Source of the DNA: Candidatus Bathyarchaeia archaeon
GTDB taxonomy: Archaea > Thermoproteota > Bathyarchaeia > Bathyarchaeales > Bathyarchaeaceae
Length of the DNA: 64,000 nt
Direction: 5' to 3'
NCBI GenBank assembly: GCA_035283685.1
Contig: DATETJ010000003.1
Span: 64,842-128,841, forward strand
Positions 16,079 to 64,000 of this stretch are shown here, piece by piece. The notes below the pieces were generated by a model that saw only the letters and a program-made list of their open reading frames with translations, ran no database searches and was not told the origin of the DNA. The position numbers were made by a program, and so were the translations under genes. Within the stretch, counting starts at the first letter, position 1; every line of letters starts with the position of its first letter.

Positions 16079-16189
16079 GTTGACGCTCTTACTCTTCAAA
16101 GACGAAAGAAGAAGGCTAAAGGGAAAAGCTGCCTTCTTCTTCCGAAAAAACTTCACCCGCACCCCAAGTTGCAGCAACGAGGACATAAG

Positions 16190-17467
16190 ATGTCGCATCA
16201 TGAACACATAACCCTCATACTCATAATAACCCTACTGGCTTCAACCCCCCTTGCCACAGTCATCTCTCCCAACGCCTCGACACAGCAAGAAATGACCCCA
16301 ACGCAGACATTCGAAACCCACGAGGAATACTTTAAACTCGCCTTCTCCGCCGACGGAAACCACATCGCAGCCATAAGCAACGAGACAGACACATTAACCC
16401 TGTTCAACCGCATAGACACGCTCTGGAACACCCATGTGCCGGGCATCAGCTCCATAGCAATATCAGAAAACGCCAGCCTCATCGTAGCCGGAGCAAACAG
16501 CGGCGTGTACATTTTCACCACGCAAAACCCAACCCCACAACGCCGCTACGACCTAAACTATCCAAACCCATTGATCGCACTCTCCAATGATGCCAGCACC
16601 CTTGCATACGCAGCCACAACCATGCTATACGTTATCCAAACAGGAAACCAGAACCCAACGTGGAACACCACACTTCAGGGAACTCTAGAAAGCCTATCAA
16701 TAGCCGGCAACGGAAACTACATCTCAGCCACCACAAACCACCCAGGCACATTATACCTGTTCTCCAGACAACAGCCCACACCAACATGGACATACAACCT
16801 CGGAGAAAACAGCGGAGCAACAAGACTCTCGCATAGCGGCGAATACCTCATAGCAACCGGAGGCAACCAAACCAGCCAAAACCCAACACGCATCTACCGA
16901 TTCCGCACGCAAAGCGCCCTGCCAAACTACATTAAAATAATCTCCGAACTCGCATCCACGCAGGAAACAGCCCTCTCCTCAGACGGTTCAATATTCGCCA
17001 TAAACCAAGCAGTCAGCAAACGCCTCATCTTCTTCAACCTGAACCTACCACCATACGGATACGGACCAGGCAGCGTCCTCAACATCTCACTTCCCAGCAA
17101 ACCAACTTCGATATCCATGTCACTGGATGGCAAATACACCGTGGTGGGCACAGACAATGGCATCTACCTATACCAATACCAAAACAGACAACTAACACTC
17201 ACAAAACAATACACAGCCAACACGCCCTCAATCACCGACATTGCCATATCTGGAAACGGCTCACACCTCGCAGCACTGGGAAACACACCACAAAACAGCA
17301 AAAACTCTGCAATCTACCTATTCAACCTACAGGAAACACGAGACACCCCGCCAAACCTCTTGCCACAACTAACCCTCCTAACAATCAGCATCATCATCGG
17401 CTCAACAGCCATCATCTACACGCTACGCAAAAAGCAAAAACCACAAAAACCCTCAAGCACAACTTAA
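16190..17467 (+). CDS. Membrane-anchored extracellular WD40-like propeller protein
   Basis: 425 aa from ATG 16190 (GAGGA 9 nt upstream); an upstream ATG at 16169 gives seven extra residues ahead of the signal peptide. Signal peptide (ITLILIITLLASTPLATV), then repeated units of about 40-45 residues with S.DG..IA....TD...LF patterns typical of WD40/YVTN-like propellers, then one membrane helix (LTLLTISIIIGSTAIIYTL) and a basic tail (RKKQKPQKP). So the propeller faces outward. Coding strand is extremely rich in A and C with few G and T, like the next gene. Ligand unknown. Confidence 0.75.
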   Translation: MSHHEHITLILIITLLASTPLATVISPNASTQQEMTPTQTFETHEEYFKLAFSADGNHIAAISNETDTLTLFNRIDTLWNTHVPGISSIAISENASLIVAGANSGVYIFTTQNPTPQRRYDLNYPNPLIALSNDASTLAYAATTMLYVIQTGNQNPTWNTTLQGTLESLSIAGNGNYISATTNHPGTLYLFSRQQPTPTWTYNLGENSGATRLSHSGEYLIATGGNQTSQNPTRIYRFRTQSALPNYIKIISELASTQETALSSDGSIFAINQAVSKRLIFFNLNLPPYGYGPGSVLNISLPSKPTSISMSLDGKYTVVGTDNGIYLYQYQNRQLTLTKQYTANTPSITDIAISGNGSHLAALGNTPQNSKNSAIYLFNLQETRDTPPNLLPQLTLLTISIIIGSTAIIYTLRKKQKPQKPSSTT

Positions 17468-17511
17468 GCTAACATTCTCCCCAAAACCACGCCCTCTCAG
17501 AGGTTAAACCT

Positions 17512-19425
17512 GTGACATCATCCCCCCTAACTGAAACGATAAAACGAACGAGCACCCTACTCCTGCAAGGAGCATCAAACCAGGTAACAGAATACGAAAA
17601 CCGCTTCCAAACCCTACACACACTCTACGACCGACTGCTCTCAGACTTCATAATCGCCAACTTCGACAACGAAAAAGCCTACAAAACAGCCCAGGAATTC
17701 TTCGGCACACCAACAGTGCGATTCGCAGGCATCGACGGCACCATGTACTCACGACCATTATTCGACCTCATAATCTTCTTCGGCGGCGCCTACGCCTCAA
17801 CCGGCACCATCACATTCACAGAAAAAAACACGCCAATCGTCACATACGACGCGAAAACTTTTCAACAGAGCGCAGGCGTATCCAGCGTCGTCCCAGTCTA
17901 CATAAACGAAGTGCCCGACATAGACCAAACCTTCTTCGACACAGCACAACCTGGCAAAATAGCCCTCAACAAACCATTGACTGACGATGGCATCGTAAAC
18001 AACGCCACAATCGCCAACTGGATAATGACCTTCGCCGAATTCTACCTAGCCTACAAACTCGCCTCAGACCCACAGCAAAGCACACGAATAATTCTAATGG
18101 ACCGAAGCCTCTCAATCGAACGCGCCAGCCTACTCTACGAAACACACAACAGAGACCTCTGGAAAACCAAATCAGCGCTGATAGGCTGCAAAATCGACAA
18201 CCAACCCATCGACATGAACGACTTGACCATCGGCAGACAACACATAATCAACACAACCCTGAAAATCCCAGCCCCCAGAGCAGACTACCTCCGCTACGCC
18301 ATATTCAACACAATCCAACAAAAAGGCGCCCTAACCAAAAAACAAATTCTCCAAGAACTGGGCATAGCAGACGAGAAACGTGCCCAACGAACCGAAAGAT
18401 ACCTCAAAGCCCTACTGAAAGACCAAATCCTAACTGAAAAATTCGACGCCTACACATTGAACCCAAAATACGCTGACACATGGACACGCCTCAAAAAACT
18501 CGTCATAGCCCTCGGCGACCAATTCTTCTCCAACACTGAGCCAGCCACACTCCCAACCAGCAACCTCATGAAAATTCAGAAAAACGGCAAAGAACAATGG
18601 CTCACAACCCTTGACATCGCTTTTCTTACTCTCTTCAGCCTCGAAATGCTAATCGAACAATGCTGGAACAACAACATTCTACTCATAGGCATAACCAAGG
18701 ATACAGCTGCAAGAGACTTCAAACGCCAACTCATACCCATACTACAAAACCAACAAATGCTGAAAAGCACAATCACACACGACGAACTAGAGAAACTGCC
18801 CAACACCGACCGCATGATACTCCAATCCGCCAGCCTCTTCAACCCAGACAAAATGAAAGTACCATGGAGCCTAATCGAATACGACTCAGCCTTCAAAACA
18901 ATGATACCCGACCCCCAAAACAGGAAAAGCCACGTCCTAGGCGCACGAAAAAACAGAATCAGCATAGAAAAAACCTTCCTAAAAACCTACATACAACTAA
19001 GCCAAGCAGCCTCAGACCCAATGCTCCGCAGCAACGTTCTACTCATAGACCGCCTAGCTCACCCCAAACACGACTACACTCCAAACAGCACAACCCAATT
19101 CTGGAACGAATTCGGCGGAGCCACAGAACCAGTCCAAGCCATACTTTTCAAAAACAACACAGTCGAAAACCCACTTCAAAACCTAATCATGACTACACTG
19201 ATCGCCATGACATCGCCCAGCATACCCGAAGCCTTCGGACACAACAAACCACTATTCATAGCCGACAAAATCGCAAAACACAACTACACCAACTTCAAAC
19301 GCATCGCAGACTCAACCGCCCACTGGCTACTCAACAACCACAAACTAAGAAAATTCATATTCTATATGAGCACATTTAGAGAAAGGCGAGCCACAATTGA
19401 AGCCACAAGACGAGAAACACCTTAA
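17512..19425 (+). CDS. nurA: NurA-domain nuclease, long form with inserted winged helix
   Basis: 637 aa, nearly twice the usual NurA length. NurA is the RNase H-fold nuclease that works with HerA to resect DNA ends. Motifs: RFAGIDGTMY (about 71-80, first catalytic Asp), IILMDRSLS (about 193), LLIGITKD (about 389) and LLIDRLA (about 509). Between them, residues about 258-335 form a winged-helix module (FNTIQQKGALTKKQILQELGI... wing ...YTLNPKYA). GTG start at 17512 follows GAGGTT by 6-7 nt. It overlaps herA by 29 nt, so the two proteins are made together. Coding strand very A/C-rich. Confidence 0.82.
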   Translation: MTSSPLTETIKRTSTLLLQGASNQVTEYENRFQTLHTLYDRLLSDFIIANFDNEKAYKTAQEFFGTPTVRFAGIDGTMYSRPLFDLIIFFGGAYASTGTITFTEKNTPIVTYDAKTFQQSAGVSSVVPVYINEVPDIDQTFFDTAQPGKIALNKPLTDDGIVNNATIANWIMTFAEFYLAYKLASDPQQSTRIILMDRSLSIERASLLYETHNRDLWKTKSALIGCKIDNQPIDMNDLTIGRQHIINTTLKIPAPRADYLRYAIFNTIQQKGALTKKQILQELGIADEKRAQRTERYLKALLKDQILTEKFDAYTLNPKYADTWTRLKKLVIALGDQFFSNTEPATLPTSNLMKIQKNGKEQWLTTLDIAFLTLFSLEMLIEQCWNNNILLIGITKDTAARDFKRQLIPILQNQQMLKSTITHDELEKLPNTDRMILQSASLFNPDKMKVPWSLIEYDSAFKTMIPDPQNRKSHVLGARKNRISIEKTFLKTYIQLSQAASDPMLRSNVLLIDRLAHPKHDYTPNSTTQFWNEFGGATEPVQAILFKNNTVENPLQNLIMTTLIAMTSPSIPEAFGHNKPLFIADKIAKHNYTNFKRIADSTAHWLLNNHKLRKFIFYMSTFRERRATIEATRRETP

Positions 19426-54653: not shown

Positions 54654-54691
54654 TTCGCTGTGTTATATGAATGTTCGTTGTTAGCGAACGG
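54654..54691 (-). promoter_or_regulatory. Second copy of the AbiE-type promoter/operator module
   Basis: Thirty of 38 bases match the promoter module at 56214-56251: half-site GTTCGCT, TATA-like TTATATGA, and an imperfect palindrome GTTCGTTGTTAGCGAAC that overlaps the toxin stop codon. It points away from the toxin gene, toward the 69-bp repeat. Confidence 0.5.
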
Positions 54692-55499
54692 ATAGAATTC
54701 GGTTTGCTTTTTTCAGGAAGGTGTTCGTTCTCACGTATACGTCGGAGATGATGTCTGCTTCAACGAATCGTGCAGCAGCAAATACTCCGTATGAATCTGT
54801 GGTTTTGAAAGCTTGATTTATTCTGCGCAGGCTGAGTTGCACTGTGCTCTTTTCTTTGGTTGATAGTTTTGCTTTTTTGATGTGGTTTAGGTATGTTTCT
54901 GATGCTTTTGATGGGTTGCCGCCATAGAATCCGCTCATGGCGTAAATGTCATAGCTGTCTTTATCGATGAGGCGAGGTAATGCTAAGCCTTTCATAGTTA
55001 GGGCTCCAACGATGTCTGCTGTGTTAATGGTGACTGTTGCTTTGCCGCCTTTTGGCAGTGTTCCTTCTATCTCGTTTTCATACTGAAACTTGAAAACGAT
55101 GTTGGATCCTGGGATTAGACAGGCGGTTAGATCTTTTTGCACTTTTGTGAGCGGGAGTGCTTTCTGTGCTGCTTGAGGTTCTGTTAGGAAATCAAGGGCT
55201 ATGTTGTATTCTTTTTTGTCTAGTGGCGAAGCGACGTTTTTCTCAAATCGGAAGGGGTTGGATGTTTTTTGGTAGCTTAGTCTTTCTGCTGTTTTCCTTA
55301 TAGTTTCGTATTTTACCATAATTGATGGTTTGAGTACAAGGTCTATGTCTTTTGAGCCGCAGTGGTCAAAGTGGTCTTTGGTTAGGAAGTACGGTGCCCA
55401 TCCTCCAGCGAGAACGAAGTCGTTTTTGTAGGTGTGTAGGGCGGAGGAGAGTTCGACAAGTGCTGATTTGGATGCTTCGGTTTGGTTCCGGTCGTACAT
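54681..55499 (-). CDS. AbiEii-like nucleotidyltransferase toxin
   Basis: 272 aa. Nucleotidyltransferase core FVLAGGWAPYFL ... KDIDLVLKPS (GG/GW with D.D) and later NIALDFL for the third acid; then a helical C-terminal domain. This is the plan of AbiEii/type IV toxins, which transfer nucleotides to RNA (tRNA in the MenT relatives). It lies 3 nt downstream of its probable antitoxin. Coding strand A/C-rich. Confidence 0.8.
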   Translation of the reverse strand: MYDRNQTEASKSALVELSSALHTYKNDFVLAGGWAPYFLTKDHFDHCGSKDIDLVLKPSIMVKYETIRKTAERLSYQKTSNPFRFEKNVASPLDKKEYNIALDFLTEPQAAQKALPLTKVQKDLTACLIPGSNIVFKFQYENEIEGTLPKGGKATVTINTADIVGALTMKGLALPRLIDKDSYDIYAMSGFYGGNPSKASETYLNHIKKAKLSTKEKSTVQLSLRRINQAFKTTDSYGVFAAARFVEADIISDVYVRTNTFLKKANRILSVR

Positions 55500-55502
55500 T
55501 GT

Positions 55503-56201
55503 TTATTGTTCACCGACTAGAGTTTTTCCCCATTTTTCAACTATTCGTTCGTATAGATGTTCAGCTGCTTCTAGTCCTCTGGCTGGATAGTTGTAGAGGT
55601 CTACGAATAACTGCACATCGCAAACCACTTTGGCTTTTTTTTCTTCTTTATCGGATATTCGAACGCTGGCTGTTTGTTGACCGTAGAAGACGCCTTCGTC
55701 GTATGGTATGACAAGCTTTACGTTGCCTCCTTTTGGGATTGGTTGAAGGTCAAGGTTTTTGGCGAGCGTTGGTGCTTCTTCTTTTTTCTTTATGTATATG
55801 TGTATGTCAACGGGTCTTACATGGGGAGCAATTAGTGATGCTGCGGCTAGAGCTGTTAATGCGTAGTTTGGGGTTTGGATGCTGGATAATTGTTCGATGA
55901 ATCGGTTGACTTCGCGTTCAAATGTGTAGTAGTCTAGGAAGGTGTTTATTTTATCGTATTGGTTGTAGGCTGCCCATCTCTTGAGCAGAACTGTTGGATT
56001 AACTGTTTTTATCTTGAAGTGTTCGGTGTGTGCCACATGGCCTAAGTCGATTAGTGTGGAAATAACAGCGTGAGCGTATCCTGGGGATATCTTGACTTCT
56101 TCAGCCAAACCTCTTATTGTCCAATTCCACTGTGGAGTTATGAGTAGTGCTCTTAGGATTCTGGTGGCTTTTGGCTCGAAGATGTTGTGTACTCGGCGCA
56201 T
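55503..56201 (-). CDS. AbiEi-like winged-helix antitoxin
   Basis: 232 aa. N-terminal winged helix (RILRALLITPQWNWTIRGLAEEVKISPGYAHAVISTLIDLGHV) and a C-terminal alpha/beta domain with LTALAAASLIAPHVRPVDIHIYI, VIPYDEGVFYG and VQLFVDLYNYPARGLEAAEHLYERI, typical of type IV AbiEi antitoxins that repress their own operon. First gene of the pair, with a palindrome-TATA promoter directly upstream. Confidence 0.8.
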   Translation of the reverse strand: MRRVHNIFEPKATRILRALLITPQWNWTIRGLAEEVKISPGYAHAVISTLIDLGHVAHTEHFKIKTVNPTVLLKRWAAYNQYDKINTFLDYYTFEREVNRFIEQLSSIQTPNYALTALAAASLIAPHVRPVDIHIYIKKKEEAPTLAKNLDLQPIPKGGNVKLVIPYDEGVFYGQQTASVRISDKEEKKAKVVCDVQLFVDLYNYPARGLEAAEHLYERIVEKWGKTLVGEQ

Positions 56202-58099: not shown

Positions 58100-58645
58100 T
58101 TACCAGCCTTGCTTTAAGGCTTTTAGTTCTCTTTTTCGGCGTTCTTCTATTTGCTCGTAGAGTCTTTTGATATCTGAGGTTACAATGCTTATACCGGATT
58201 CGCCTTCAATTCTTTCGATTGTTATTTGCCTTGTTGTTGGCCGTTCTAGTTGTTCTAGTCTTGGGACCTCCACTATGAATTCTCTTGAGGAAACTAGTCC
58301 GAGGGTTTGGCCTGATGGTAGTAGTCCGCTCATTTCTATTTTCATTTGGTGTGGTCCTGTGTTGACTTGGCCGAATTTGGTGAATATTTCTACGGTGAGT
58401 TCTTTTCTGAGGTTTTTCATGGTTCCTGGGACTGATGTGTAGAAGGTTTTGAGGCGTTGTCCGTCGAAGTACAGGTTTGCTTTGAGGTGTGAGCAGAGGC
58501 CGTATCCGATTGGTGTGAGCCTGAACTTTATGGTGAGTGCTAAATTTCTGTTTGTGATTTTTTGGAGGATATCTTTTATGATAATTGTTTCTGATTTAGG
58601 CTGTGCTTTTGCGAATCCTTCAAGTTTGGCTTCTCTTGTCCTCAA
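58100..58645 (-). CDS. Unknown 181-aa protein of methylase island
   Basis: TTG start at 58645. Beta-rich middle (LALTIKFRLTPIGYGLCSHLKANLYFDGQRLKTFYTSVPG ... QMKIEMSGLLPSGQTLGLVSSREFIVEVP), like an Ig/C2-type sandwich, and a C-terminal charged helix (IKRLYEQIEERRKRELKALKQGW). No family recognised. Same strand and composition as the three genes upstream; 35 nt after the DGQHR gene, so probably part of the same system. Confidence 0.65.
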   Translation of the reverse strand: MRTREAKLEGFAKAQPKSETIIIKDILQKITNRNLALTIKFRLTPIGYGLCSHLKANLYFDGQRLKTFYTSVPGTMKNLRKELTVEIFTKFGQVNTGPHQMKIEMSGLLPSGQTLGLVSSREFIVEVPRLEQLERPTTRQITIERIEGESGISIVTSDIKRLYEQIEERRKRELKALKQGW

Positions 58646-58679
58646 AGCTTAATCGCCCAATCCTTTGCATATTTTGGGT

Positions 58680-59783
58680 TTATTGTATGGCTTCGAGTGC
58701 TTGGTTGAAGTATTCGGCGAGCGCTTTCATTGTTTTCATGCTGGTTGCGATGACTAGTGGGTGTCCTTCTTTTTTGTGCCAGAAGGCGCTGTCGAGTTGG
58801 TCTACGGGCATGGCTTCGGCGACGTTTTTGAACATTTTTTCTAGTATCTGTTTCATTTTTTCTTGGGTGCAGTTACCTGCTTGTTCGCATAGGTCATAGA
58901 CGTGTGAGTATATCATGTGGAGTGAGTAGGCGCCTGGCGTTCTTTGGATTGTGAATTCTTTTGGGTCTTCGAACGCTTCTGGGAATATTTCCTTGAGAGC
59001 GTTCCAGTAGTTGGCGATGTCGTTTGCAAGTTCTTTGGGATTCTTTCTTCTGAAGCTGGGTCTTGATTTTAGGATATAGGTTATAGAGTCGGTAAGGGGG
59101 CGTTGTTTGATTATGTGGTTTTCTTGTTTCTTTTCGCTTGGCAGCTGGACTTTGTTGTACCAAGGGGAGCGTGGGTCGTTTCGGATTATGTCGACTACGG
59201 GTATGGCTTCGGCTGTTAGTACGGCTTTTTCTCCTTCTAGCATGAGTAGGGTTGGTTTGCCCATTTTTTCAGACATTTCGTAGAGGTGGCGTTGGACTAG
59301 GTCGGTTGAGACTCCTTTTTGGCGGGTGTTGATTATGTAGAATTGTCGCATTTCGGTGTAGACGTCTGGTAGGTTGACGATTGTTACTGGTACGGGGTAG
59401 TCGTCGAATTTTGGGTCTTCTTCTCTTGCTTCTTTGAGTCCTTCTAGGCGGTGTTGTCCGTCGACTATTGAGAAGGGTAGGGATTCTGGGGATAGGGCTA
59501 GTTCGCCGAATTCTGCGAAGCTGTCGATTGATTTTTTGGGTCTGAATTCCATTTTTCCTCTTACGTTGACGAGTATTGACGTGGGGAATACTCCTTCTTC
59601 TTTTAGGAGGTAGTTCATGGCCTTGCGGACTCGTAGGGGTACGAGGGCTCTTTGGTAACCTTTTGGGTTGTCTTCGCCCCATCTGTCGATTTTATATGAG
59701 GCGAGAAGGTCGCCAGCCTTCATTGTGGTTATGTACATTGGTAGACCTCTTTGCTGGATTTTAAACGCGTTTAACACAGGCAT
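58680..59783 (-). CDS. DGQHR-domain protein (DndB/DpdB-like)
   Basis: 367 aa. The hallmark SIVDGQHRLEGL is at about 106-117, with a preceding strand (SILVNVRGKMEFRPK) and a following VPVTIVNLPDVYTEMRQFYIINTRQKGVSTDL, the ParB-like fold of DndB and DpdB. DndB regulates phosphorothioate modification; DpdB belongs to the deazaguanine DNA-modification system. Neither dnd nor dpd partner genes are seen here. Promoter: minus-strand TATTTTTATAATTT near 59836-59849, with AAGGAG 12 nt before the ATG, so it may have its own transcript. Confidence 0.85.
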   Translation of the reverse strand: MPVLNAFKIQQRGLPMYITTMKAGDLLASYKIDRWGEDNPKGYQRALVPLRVRKAMNYLLKEEGVFPTSILVNVRGKMEFRPKKSIDSFAEFGELALSPESLPFSIVDGQHRLEGLKEAREEDPKFDDYPVPVTIVNLPDVYTEMRQFYIINTRQKGVSTDLVQRHLYEMSEKMGKPTLLMLEGEKAVLTAEAIPVVDIIRNDPRSPWYNKVQLPSEKKQENHIIKQRPLTDSITYILKSRPSFRRKNPKELANDIANYWNALKEIFPEAFEDPKEFTIQRTPGAYSLHMIYSHVYDLCEQAGNCTQEKMKQILEKMFKNVAEAMPVDQLDSAFWHKKEGHPLVIATSMKTMKALAEYFNQALEAIQ

Positions 59784-59892
59784 GTTTCATAACATCTCCT
59801 TAATAGGGGCCTAATTAATTGAAACGGCCGTCAAATTATAAAAATATTTCGGTTTAAGACAGGCCCTCTCAATAACTAGGATGCACCAATGA

Positions 59893-61896
59893 TCATTCTT
59901 GGCTTTTCTGTCGGATGCTGTAGAGTCTTTTTCCGTCTGGTCCGAATCTGTAGTCCCATATGTTGCCGGCTGAGTCCTTGTACATTCCCAAGCCGACTGA
60001 TCGCATGTCTTTGGGTAGTTCGTCCTCGGTGTATTCGTTTGGCTTTTTGGGTTCGGCAGTTTCGGGGATGGGTTGTTTTATTGGCTCGCCAGCCTTTGTT
60101 TCTGGTGGTTTTTCGGGTGGTGTTACTTTTTCTTTTTCTGCCTCTGGGGCGGCCAGTTTTTTCATGATGTGGTATATTGGGAAGGCTTCGTTGGATCTTA
60201 TCCATGCTTCTTCGACGAAGAATTGGACGGCCATTTTGGCTGATAGGCTGTCTATTGGGATGACGTCTGAATCAGTGTTTAGATGATTCACTAATGACAT
60301 GGCTGATGCTAGTTGTATGGCTCTTCTTTCGAGTCGCATTGAGAAGGGTACGACTTTGGTTCCTAAGTGTTCTAGGACGAGGGTGGTTGCGGTTTCTAGC
60401 ATTTTTAGTATTTCGTCGGTTAGAAGTATTTTTTTGTCGTAGAAGCTTCCGGCTACGAGTGGGTCTTTTGTTTGTATTGCGTATACGAGGGTGAGGTGGT
60501 CCCGGATTTTGTAGGCTTCTTCCATTTTGGTTCTTAGTTCGCCTAGTAGGAGGGCTCTTTGGCTTTTTGATAGTTCTTGGTATTTTTGTTTGGTGAGTCT
60601 GTGTAGGCGGCAGAGCATGCGGTCTTCTATTGCGTTGAAGTTTGAGTCTCTGACTGTGACTTCGTAGCCTTTTTCGTAGACTTCGGTGTTGTAGTTGACT
60701 GTGAAGAAGGATGAGAAGCGGTATGGACCGACTGTGTAGGTTTTGGTTTCGTATCTTATTGAGCCTCTTTCCATTGCGAGTTTCATTGGTTCTACCATGC
60801 CTTTGTGTTTGAACCAGTCGTTGAATTCTGTGACTATGAAGTTGAAGCGTCTGCCTAGGTATGCTTCACCGATGGCTATGAACATGGCTGGTGTCATTCC
60901 GCCGCAGTATCTGTTGATGCCTGGTAGTCCGTGGGGTGGGACGCCTTGGTCTTCGTTGCCTAGTATCATGTCTTTTGTGGCGAATGTTTTTCCTGTTCCT
61001 GGTTCTCCGAATAGGGCTAGGTTGAAGCCTGTGTTTAGTGCTTTTTGGCCTTTTTTGTTGATTACTGTTGAGTCGCATATTGAGTAGGATTGTGTTATGC
61101 TGAGTAGGTGGTCGAAGAAGAGGGTGGGGCCATATAGTGATTGTAGATAGTCTGTGAGATATGTTGGTGACATTTGTTTGCCGAATTCTATTGTTTGTTC
61201 TAGTCTGTTGGCGATAAGGTCTTTGAGGTAGTTTCTGAATTCTTCGTCCATTCTTATTACTTCGAGGAATTCGCGTTCAGCTTGTTCAGTGCTTAGTCTG
61301 GGTACTGGTTTGGCTTCAAATTCTGAGAGGACTTCAATTACGACTGGTTTTATTTCTTCGGGCATGGCCCATCTTGGATGCTGTTTGGACCCGACTTCCC
61401 ATGCTAAGTCGAATTTGTCTCTGAGTTCTGCTATAAGACGAGCAGGGTATAGTTTGTCGCCGTAGATTTCGCTTGATGTGGCCGCTAGTGAGTCGAAGTG
61501 TGCTTGGCCAGTTTCAACTAGTGCTTTTAGTAGGGCGTAGCCTTTTTTTCCGTAGGTTTTAAGCACTTGTTTAATGGTGATTCTGACTTCTTCCCATGAA
61601 CCTTGGCAATCAAACGTGCCTTCTTTGACGGTGTAATATTTGCCTCTAAATGCATAGTGGTCTTTGAAGGGTGAAAGCTGTATCATTTGGGTTAATTGTT
61701 CGTCTGTTATTGTTTTCGCGAGTTTATCGAGGTTGATTGCTTGGTCGATTGGAAGTTCTCCGTTGAAAATTTGCTGACTAATTTTTGTTTTAACTTCGTT
61801 GGGCATGGCCCATTCTAAGTGATAAAGATATCTCCTGAGAAGTAGGATTCGCTCCTTTAACTTGTCTCCAGGCAAAAATGACTGGTTCGCGTTCAA
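59893..61896 (-). CDS. MCM/MoxR-like AAA+ ATPase with unusual Walker B
   Basis: 667 aa, TTG start 12 nt after the methylase stop. The first 200 residues hold two helical/winged-helix-like repeats, each ending in AMP(N/E)E. AAA core: Walker A GEPGTGKT (297-304), a Walker B equivalent FNFIVTEFNDW (352-361) where the Mg-binding Asp is Thr but the Glu stays, sensor-1 Asn in FFTVNYN (401), and Arg finger candidates in EDRMLCRLHRL (426, 430). The VEPMKLAMERGSIRYETKTYTV helix-hairpin matches the presensor hairpin of MCM/MoxR ATPases. A long Pro/Glu linker leads to a C-terminal WDYRFGPDGKRLYSI motif. Likely a DNA motor working with the methylase. Confidence 0.8.
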   Translation of the reverse strand: MNANQSFLPGDKLKERILLLRRYLYHLEWAMPNEVKTKISQQIFNGELPIDQAINLDKLAKTITDEQLTQMIQLSPFKDHYAFRGKYYTVKEGTFDCQGSWEEVRITIKQVLKTYGKKGYALLKALVETGQAHFDSLAATSSEIYGDKLYPARLIAELRDKFDLAWEVGSKQHPRWAMPEEIKPVVIEVLSEFEAKPVPRLSTEQAEREFLEVIRMDEEFRNYLKDLIANRLEQTIEFGKQMSPTYLTDYLQSLYGPTLFFDHLLSITQSYSICDSTVINKKGQKALNTGFNLALFGEPGTGKTFATKDMILGNEDQGVPPHGLPGINRYCGGMTPAMFIAIGEAYLGRRFNFIVTEFNDWFKHKGMVEPMKLAMERGSIRYETKTYTVGPYRFSSFFTVNYNTEVYEKGYEVTVRDSNFNAIEDRMLCRLHRLTKQKYQELSKSQRALLLGELRTKMEEAYKIRDHLTLVYAIQTKDPLVAGSFYDKKILLTDEILKMLETATTLVLEHLGTKVVPFSMRLERRAIQLASAMSLVNHLNTDSDVIPIDSLSAKMAVQFFVEEAWIRSNEAFPIYHIMKKLAAPEAEKEKVTPPEKPPETKAGEPIKQPIPETAEPKKPNEYTEDELPKDMRSVGLGMYKDSAGNIWDYRFGPDGKRLYSIRQKSQE

Positions 61897-61907
61897 TGTT
61901 GGCGACC

Positions 61908-64000
61908 CTACCTGTTACCTAAGAGTTCTGAAGCTAGTTCATCGATTCTCTTAATTTCTCCTTCAATGACTCCTCTTGCTTCCCTTCTTAAACTGGCCAC
62001 ACTTCCCTTTGCAAATTGCTTTGCCGCGAGCTTGTTATGGCATAGTTTACTCAGTCCCGCTAATTCGATGTGCGCCGAGTTGTTTTTGTTGAACTGAGGT
62101 ATCGAAAACATGAAGGGCCTCCTTGTAACTGCTCTTTCCCCAAAAAGACCTCGTGGTTGCAATGGTTTTATGCTGTCATTGATAATGTTAGAGTTGAGAA
62201 TTGCACAAACATAGTGCGCTTCCATTTCATCGTTTGTTTCGTAGAAGAAAGTGGATTGCTCAGAAATGAATCCTTTCGGACTTATTTTGGCTCGCAGGAG
62301 TGGAAAGTCAGGTAATACTTGCTTCTCAATAACACATGATGCGATGTTTGTCCCACTTGAGTTATATATGACAATGTATTTTTTGCTAGGGCTTTGAGCA
62401 TCCAGTTTATTCATATAGTTGAGCCACGAAACAACCCTTGGAAAATTCTTCCTCGACCTTTCTGTTGCGTTTTCCTCCCATATTTTTTGGACCGCCTGTA
62501 CCCAATCGGCCATGTGGTGGAAACCTCGGCTTCTAAGTTCAATGATATCAAGTAGTCTGTAGCGATTAGCACGTGACTCTATAGGGAGGGCCACTTGTCG
62601 CATTCTAGTATAGCGAAAAGACAGTATATCTCCGGCCAACAGCGTTGCAAAAATGAAGCCAGCCTCCACATTTCCGGCTAGCTGTATGCCTTTCCAACGA
62701 TCTTTAGCTTGTTCTAATACATCCTCTGCCGATTTAACAAATGGTTTGTTTACGTCAGCTCCTAATGTTGCGTGCGGATCAAACTCTATAAACCAAAGAC
62801 ACCTTGGGGTTATGTCTATCCCCTTCTTGACCTTGTCATAATACCAACTGTACCTTGTTGGAGTAAAGGGGGGATTGTAAAGGTAGTCTTCGACTGAAAG
62901 CTGTCTAATGGCTTCTCCCAGTCTAAGGTTCTTTTCGCTAAGTTCTCCTCTATATCGATTTGTATGTACTGGATATTTCGTGTCTTTTCCCTTTAATGCT
63001 ATTAGTACACATGAGGGAACATTAAAAAGTGGCTCCACATCTTCTAGATCAAATATCTTGAACAGCTTGTTCTTTGGCTTGCTAAATCGTTTAAAGTTGA
63101 CGTGGTGTAGAGCCCCCGTGAGTACGCTTCTTGGCATTACGAACGCTATCGCACCGTCATCGCGCAAGTAGAGATCACTGCAGCGAGAGAAAAAGCATGT
63201 AGCCATTTCCATGTTAGAGAATTGATGGACTTGGCTACTGTTTAGCAAGTCATAAGAAAGTACTTCTTGCTTGAGGAAGTCTTGGTAGTTCTTGTTCTCC
63301 ACGTATCTCAGAAGAATCCAAGGAGGATTGCCAACCACCATATCAAACTTGGATTGCATCAACGTGATGGGAGCGTATATGTTGCTGAGCATGAAAACCC
63401 ATATTGCGTCCAAGTTGGCGTCCATGAGCATCAAAATAGTATTCAGAGTTGTATCTAGAACGTCCAGTTCATCGTCTGAAAGTTTGGCGCCATGACTTCT
63501 CCCCAAGACTTCCAAAGCTTCTGTCTTGTTCCTCCGTGCTCTGTAAGCGCTAATAGCCGCCTTATAGCCATCTATAACCTGGCTTAGAACAGTTTTCTGA
63601 GTGGCCACAGTTTTCGGAATCTGAATTGCATAGATTTTCGGTTTCCCATTCTTATTATTTGCAACCTCCACGCTGAATTCGTAAACGCTAACCTTGCCCT
63701 TTTCAGTGAGAGTCTCAGTAACCCTAGGTATTCTAACCGAATCTGCCACATAAATAGGAACGATAATACGTTTACCCAGCTGGAGTAATTCTCCCAACGC
63801 AACAATATAATTAGCCCGTGCAATAACCACAGCCAACGGATTGATGTCGACACCTACCACATTATCAAGGACAAAATCCAGAATATACTTGTGATCTTTT
63901 CCTTCTTTCAAAAGACGTTCCTTTACGACATGAATAGCATTGCAGAGAAATGTTCCGGACCCGCAACCCGGGTCCAAAATTCTAGGTGTGCCTTGATGGG
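61908..64000 (-). CDS. N6-adenine DNA methyltransferase, TaqI/Eco57I type (5' end outside window)
   Basis: About 697 aa visible; the frame remains open to the window edge (HQGTPRILDPGCGSGTFL), so the N-terminus is missing. SAM motif I DPGCGSGTFL, acidic VVGVDINPLAV, catalytic motif IV MVVGNPPWILL, and a long C-terminal part (about 350 residues, including FISEQSTFFYETND and IPQFNKNNSAHIELAGL) like the TaqI-type target-recognition domain. N6-adenine methylation is expected. It heads a co-directional unit with the AAA ATPase; whether an N-terminal nuclease domain exists lies outside the window. Confidence 0.9.
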   Translation of the reverse strand, partial: HQGTPRILDPGCGSGTFLCNAIHVVKERLLKEGKDHKYILDFVLDNVVGVDINPLAVVIARANYIVALGELLQLGKRIIVPIYVADSVRIPRVTETLTEKGKVSVYEFSVEVANNKNGKPKIYAIQIPKTVATQKTVLSQVIDGYKAAISAYRARRNKTEALEVLGRSHGAKLSDDELDVLDTTLNTILMLMDANLDAIWVFMLSNIYAPITLMQSKFDMVVGNPPWILLRYVENKNYQDFLKQEVLSYDLLNSSQVHQFSNMEMATCFFSRCSDLYLRDDGAIAFVMPRSVLTGALHHVNFKRFSKPKNKLFKIFDLEDVEPLFNVPSCVLIALKGKDTKYPVHTNRYRGELSEKNLRLGEAIRQLSVEDYLYNPPFTPTRYSWYYDKVKKGIDITPRCLWFIEFDPHATLGADVNKPFVKSAEDVLEQAKDRWKGIQLAGNVEAGFIFATLLAGDILSFRYTRMRQVALPIESRANRYRLLDIIELRSRGFHHMADWVQAVQKIWEENATERSRKNFPRVVSWLNYMNKLDAQSPSKKYIVIYNSSGTNIASCVIEKQVLPDFPLLRAKISPKGFISEQSTFFYETNDEMEAHYVCAILNSNIINDSIKPLQPRGLFGERAVTRRPFMFSIPQFNKNNSAHIELAGLSKLCHNKLAAKQFAKGSVASLRREARGVIEGEIKRIDELASELLGNR

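Follow-up and report, generated by a model that had tools for sequence, protein, structure and literature searches.

At and just past the end of the 64,000-nucleotide stretch of DNA analysed here (the window; bases 64842–128841 of the 131,421-base contig DATETJ010000003.1, G000:C3), in a Bathyarchaeia genome (G000) of 2.28 Mb and 98% completeness, lies a run of five genes, in the order EVE, RM, AAA, DGQHR and 181 aa, with intergenic gaps of 39, 11, 109 and 34 bp. These encode an EVE-domain protein, a Type IIG-like restriction-modification (RM) protein, an MCM-like AAA+ ATPase, a DGQHR-domain protein, and a 181-amino-acid (aa) protein with a predicted immunoglobulin (Ig)-like fold. A previous sequence-only reading of the window had proposed that the last four may form a defence module, and all four open reading frames are present, co-directional and on the minus strand, as it described. 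A putative role in DNA-targeting defence has good support from the Type IIG RM, EVE and DGQHR proteins, the adjoining AbiE-like cassette, and an AbiV-like gene beside a second copy of part of the operon in another genome (G135). A single four-gene module is not demonstrated, since the complete order is seen once, three of the genes recur once, and a relative of the RM gene exists without the others.

The RM gene starts outside the window, at window-equivalent position 65051 (L002:8750–11893), and encodes 1,047 aa, of which the in-window part (61908–64000) is approximately the C-terminal two thirds. Here the sequence-only reading recognised an N6-adenine methyltransferase, and the motifs in question are present: motif I, DPGCGSGTF (63948–63974, aa 360–368), and motif IV, NPPW (63318–63329, aa 575–578). 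The gene leaves the window, however, and to judge from its motifs and family matches the complete product is a single-chain nuclease–methylase fusion of the Type IIG kind. It matches N6_Mtase (3.2e-14) and Eco57I (1.5e-12) in Pfam, and REase_MTase_IIG (PDLC03630, 1.5e-92) in PADLOC. The N-terminal nuclease motif ADLIFSNVVFEIKV (D...EIK) falls upstream of the window end; the ADLIFSNVVFEIK motif within aa 64–79 is a D...E.K nuclease signature that aligns with its counterparts in other members of the family, among them GRADALLGNLIIEFK and GRIDALYGHVVIEYK, and is kept in most of those that extend that far upstream. For a target-recognition domain, which such enzymes would carry C-terminally, there is a TaqI_C match under the cut-off (expectation value, E, 0.023). 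As the RM protein would itself be a restriction enzyme, no external nuclease partner is needed. Extension of the contig, which had been suggested as a route to nuclease or helicase partners, yielded a nuclease motif inside the RM protein, together with the upstream EVE gene (141 aa, L002:11933–12358, window-equivalent 65091–65516; PF01878, 1.4e-17).

The AAA gene (59893–61896, minus strand, 667 aa) begins 11 bp past the RM stop codon. Its Walker A motif, GEPGTGKT, lies at 60985–61008 and its Walker B glutamate codon at 60826–60828, and the columns found invariant in an alignment of 37 relatives are the lysine of Walker A, E357 of Walker B, N401/N403 and three arginines (426, 430 and 521). No family in Pfam (MCM Pfam included), NCBIfam or PADLOC covers this protein, and a PADLOC run on the 37 relatives gave marginal matches only. 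Its description as an MCM/MoxR-like ATPase fits the Walker A motif and the best Foldseek matches of the AlphaFold2 model, all of which are MCM helicases (E 3e-5), but the template-modelling (TM) scores are low (~0.3), as is the predicted local distance difference test (pLDDT) value of 69.6.

AAA relatives are found in 51 of the 257 genomes of the class, and in other families of the phylum. Most of those in the class are single-copy and directly follow a coiled-coil protein of ~550 aa, and an ordinary copy is also kept in the host genome itself (G000:C2). As nearly all class relatives are only ~45% identical to it, and the ordinary copy persists alongside, the window AAA, which sits on a long branch (0.95) in the tree, is a derived, fast-evolving paralogue of the phylum's MCM-like ATPase. 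This breadth, the single-copy pairing with a coiled-coil protein, and the conserved chromosomal neighbourhoods of some DGQHR relatives would suit a housekeeping DNA-maintenance operon, in which AAA would be a motor for replication or repair, in the manner of its phylum-wide paralogue, with a methylase attached. Such an operon is improbable, given the long branch of the module AAA in a genome that retains the ordinary copy, its position beside a nuclease–methylase and an AbiE-like cassette, and the very patchy occurrence of the module, in 2 of the 257 class genomes. The coiled-coil and AAA pair, which is without any Pfam family, is found at G000:C2:608642–610384 (L033) and in many class genomes, adjoining a sugar-nucleotidyltransferase-like gene. 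Viruses may likewise use the AAA family as a replication motor: the viral contig IMGVR_UViG_3300006076_000613 (L230:9644–11080) carries a distant AAA relative (36% identity) with a PCNA-like clamp gene, an association that fits a DNA motor. Searches of phages and of plasmids gave no AAA match.

The DGQHR gene (58680–59783, minus strand) encodes a 367-aa, ParB/Srx-like member of the DndB/DpdB superfamily, matching PF14072 (2.5e-21), TIGR03187 (2.3e-39) and PADLOC DpdB (1.8e-22). It passes the TIGR03187 domain cut-off, with 135.8 bits against 58.85; the DndB and DpdB equivalog cut-offs are not reached (32.3/328 and 80.2/300 bits). The DGQHR motif itself lies at 59448–59462, and together with a QR pair and FxxxN is invariant in the protein alignment (A1). 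Reading by eye indicated an AAGGAG ribosome-binding-like motif immediately 5′ of the ATG, and a possible archaeal TATA-like box, AAATATTTTTATAAT (59835–59849, minus strand), in the gap ahead of the gene. A profile scan of the genome contigs with this alignment returned four loci, of which only that in G135 has the AAA–DGQHR–181 block; a scan of viral sequences found none, and plasmids carry DGQHR proteins of only 26–29% identity.

The presence of DGQHR homologues in Dnd and Dpd loci raises the question of whether this protein marks a backbone or base modification system of that type, to which the methylase would be incidental. In G370, inspection by eye placed a more distant relative next to a PAPS-reductase-like gene, and B12-binding radical SAM genes adjoin the closest relatives from outside the module (43–47% identity); both would be in keeping with such a system. 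Set against this, DndC (TIGR03183) has no match in the 98%-complete genome, the equivalog cut-offs are unmet, and the operon is without any sulphur-transfer or queuosine-type gene, making this explanation very improbable; Dnd proper was rejected on the lack of DndC. Four Bathyarchaeia genomes (G044, G212, G071 and G104) have a radical SAM gene of this kind beside a single DGQHR gene or two of them (L133:231–4006, L134:7009–12401, L150:8000–10449, L151:7586–10117), with apparent phage structural genes near the L150 locus; the two kinds of gene are possibly an undescribed nucleic-acid modification pair.

The last gene (58100–58645, minus strand) had been described as encoding a beta-rich unknown protein, in agreement with its AlphaFold2 model (pLDDT 80.6), in which an Ig-like sandwich is followed by a helix at the C terminus, and with the lack of any model for it in PADLOC, Pfam or NCBIfam. 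Structural matches are weak, and comprise CARDB and other Ig-like folds in the PDB (E 5e-3). Relatives of this protein are 21–29% identical, and the family was rejected as a marker of the module, its homologues being mostly stand-alone genes in unrelated contexts.

G135 (contig CALJDG010000109.1) has AAA, DGQHR and 181-aa genes arranged as in the window, with respective identities of 82, 84 and 55%, and the AbiV-like gene after them; the contig begins inside AAA. Four-fold degenerate sites have reached saturation between the two genomes (0.434 identical against 0.405 expected), yet the AAA and DGQHR proteins retain 82–84% identity, which indicates that the three-gene block is old and strongly constrained. 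The corresponding Nei–Gojobori (NG86) nonsynonymous divergence (dN) is 0.10, against 0.18 for the housekeeping AAA pair, which has thus diverged further. Saturation of the synonymous sites led to the rejection of a recent horizontal transfer between G000 and G135. Conservation beyond chance is shown for AAA–DGQHR–181, in one other genome, and not for the four genes together.

The skewed base composition to which the sequence-only reading drew attention is real, though it is no proof of a defence island, as equally skewed genes lie at 16169–19425. Coding-strand AT skew is ~0 in EVE and RM, and 0.38–0.43 in AAA, DGQHR and the 181-aa gene, whose four-fold sites are nearly all A or C (for 61362–61017: A26, C21, G0, T3). 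The 5′ part of the RM gene has the reverse bias (A3, C6, G14, T27), the flip falling around 61.4–63.2 kb. Extreme synonymous strand asymmetry marks the regions 58100–61700, 62150–65500 and 16169–19425; the genes of the last are on the other strand and have the same excess of A over T. The A/C bias is also present in the AAA gene of G135, despite saturation.

Distant relatives of the RM protein offer several parallels within the class. In four genomes (G072, G026, G123 and G175) the gene is followed by BrxL, overlapping or 10 bp away, and in G072 and G123 a JAB gene comes next (L166:10009–16223, L213:5961–11067, L216:4795–9897 and L262:2–2258, with the JAB-domain gene in L166 and L216). Searches of the genomes found no PglZ in G072, G123 and G142, and two marginal PglZ matches, on other contigs, in G026; RM–BrxL in Bathyarchaeia is a possible BREX (bacteriophage exclusion)-free system. 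An EVE gene suspected ahead of RM–BrxL in G026 was rejected, the similarity amounting to E 0.043, with none by Pfam. G142 and G110 each have an Eco57I-like fusion (1,095–1,127 aa) ahead of an AAA ATPase with an N-terminal AN1 zinc finger, giving RM–p237–AAA in G142 and RM–AAA in G110 (L041:5153–10515, with a 237-aa gene between and overlapping reading frames; L043:8184–12966). These ATPases, 47–48% identical to the window AAA, are the closest to it outside the module. From the RM–BrxL(–JAB), RM–p237–AAA and RM–AAA operons, it appears that Type IIG-like enzymes have been paired with MCM-like ATPases repeatedly in the class.

Our preferred interpretation, to which we assign a probability of roughly 0.4, is that the operon is a Type IIG-centred RM system into which an MCM-like AAA+ ring has been recruited, apparently a variant form of antiviral restriction. 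In its favour are the order and shared orientation of the genes, the 11-bp RM–AAA gap, the single-chain nuclease–methylase, the AAA fold prediction nearest to MCM and the viral AAA relative with its clamp gene, the nuclease, methylase, AAA and DGQHR motifs, all of them intact, the retention of AAA–DGQHR–181 in G135, and the recurrence in the class of RM with MCM-like ATPases. Several results weigh against it. A single genome has the complete order RM–AAA–DGQHR–181; the 1.4 kb available downstream of the closest RM relative (G158, 63%) contains no AAA; and no close RM homologue was found in the G135 genome (80% complete). Synonymous base composition reverses sign between RM and AAA, so the two may have joined separately. 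On the ATPase side, the AAA model is of low confidence, a profile comparison of AAA with BrxL aligned the Walker region alone with a probability of 31%, and the tree joins the two RM-linked AAA clades weakly (82/31), through long branches.

The chief alternative, a serious contender, is that two independent units share one island: an ordinary EVE and Type IIG RM unit, and after it a separate AAA–DGQHR–181 unit that functions by itself. RM copies in G084 and G222, like that in G158, stand apart from AAA–DGQHR–181-type genes; the three-gene block in G135 has its own AbiV-like follower; the synonymous skew is opposite in the two parts; and a further transcript may start from the TATA-like box ahead of DGQHR. 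On the other hand, the 11-bp gap between RM and AAA is too small for a promoter, at least two further operon types in the class place an MCM-like ATPase after a Type IIG-like enzyme, and since the G135 contig ends in AAA, the preceding gene cannot be shown there.

If the Type IIG-centred system with a recruited ring is correct, the RM protein would methylate one adenine motif on host DNA and cut foreign DNA that lacks this methylation, at the motif or close to it. AAA would form an ATP-driven ring on DNA, by analogy with BrxL in BREX, and together with RM would act on unmarked foreign DNA by translocating on it, remodelling it or blocking its replication. The ParB/Srx-type DGQHR protein could serve either as a regulator that depends on nucleotide or as a partner bound to DNA; the 181-aa protein, with its Ig-like fold, would be an adaptor; and the EVE protein may be a sensor of modified bases. 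The stronger proposition, that Type IIG enzyme, dedicated MCM-like ring, ParB/Srx-type DGQHR protein and Ig-like adaptor constitute one undescribed archaeal defence machine, is considered unlikely; such a machine would be one of several independent pairings of a nuclease–methylase with a helicase-like ring lacking the BREX core, alongside RM–BrxL–JAB and RM–p237–AAA. The mechanism by which BREX blocks phage, and the part played in it by BrxL, are still debated. A PglZ-free pairing of nuclease–methylase and MCM-like ring would allow the role of the ring to be probed in a two- to four-gene setting, would suggest that relatives of the archaeal replication helicase entered defence more than once, and would give DGQHR proteins a context outside phosphorothioation.

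The surroundings of the operon add a neighbouring AbiEi/AbiEii-like toxin–antitoxin cassette (54681–56201, minus strand), which had been noted from the sequence and is upheld for AbiEi (AbiEi_2, PF09952, 1.2e-10 at 55503–56201); the AbiEii match, at 54681–55499, is under the cut-off (0.0089). On the other side, the contig runs 2.6 kb beyond the window end and then stops, and past EVE there is nothing but a TBP-like fragment and the terminal part of a DUF4143 gene. The fragment (52 aa, L002:12478–12636, opposite strand; Pfam TBP E 0.002, under the cut-off) is perhaps a gene remnant. Searches found no tRNA and no Rfam RNA.

The earlier suggestion that no described system covers this gene combination holds, as AAA and the 181-aa protein have no model in PADLOC, Pfam or NCBIfam, and the literature consulted (open-licence PMC papers only) contains no description of it. 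BREX was rejected, as neither PglZ (PF08665) nor BrxL (PF13337) has a match in the G000 genome, and RM reaches at most 55.9 bits against PglX equivalogs (NF033451/33452/33454/33455) with cut-offs of 400–900; the operon has no BrxC, for which a genome-wide search was not made. MADS was rejected on the MAD2 methylase equivalog (NF047738, 54.5/720 bits). For DISARM, no drmA/drmB helicase or DUF1998 gene was seen among the flanking genes, which end with the contig 2.6 kb past the window, and no genome-wide search was made. The BREX-related, DUF499-centred systems (PMC12839542) likewise represent RM-like defence sharing parts with BREX, whereas the present operon has no DUF499/BrxC-like gene.

The operon shares features with several known systems. 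BrxL is a DNA-binding ring with an MCM-like structure that is required for restriction (PMC10164562), and the operon shares with BREX types 1 and 4 (PglX with BrxL) the combination of a DNA methylase with an MCM-like AAA+ ring (PMC10164562), although here the methylase has its own nuclease motif, the ATPase belongs to a different MCM-like lineage, and the genome is without PglZ and BrxL. With DndB, a transcriptional regulator in Salmonella (PMC4507180), and DpdB, it has in common the DGQHR domain, QR pair, FxxxN and ParB/Srx relationship (PMC4619093), but falls short of the equivalog cut-offs in a genome without DndC. With Type IIG enzymes of the Eco57I/MmeI-like kind it shares a single chain with a D...E.K nuclease motif, a gamma-type N6-adenine methylase (DPxCGSG, NPPW) and, C-terminally, a long region that is the expected place of the target-recognition domain. 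Whereas those enzymes are normally solitary, here an EVE gene comes before the RM gene and the gene for an MCM-like AAA+ ATPase starts 11 bp after it, with the DGQHR and 181-aa genes to follow.

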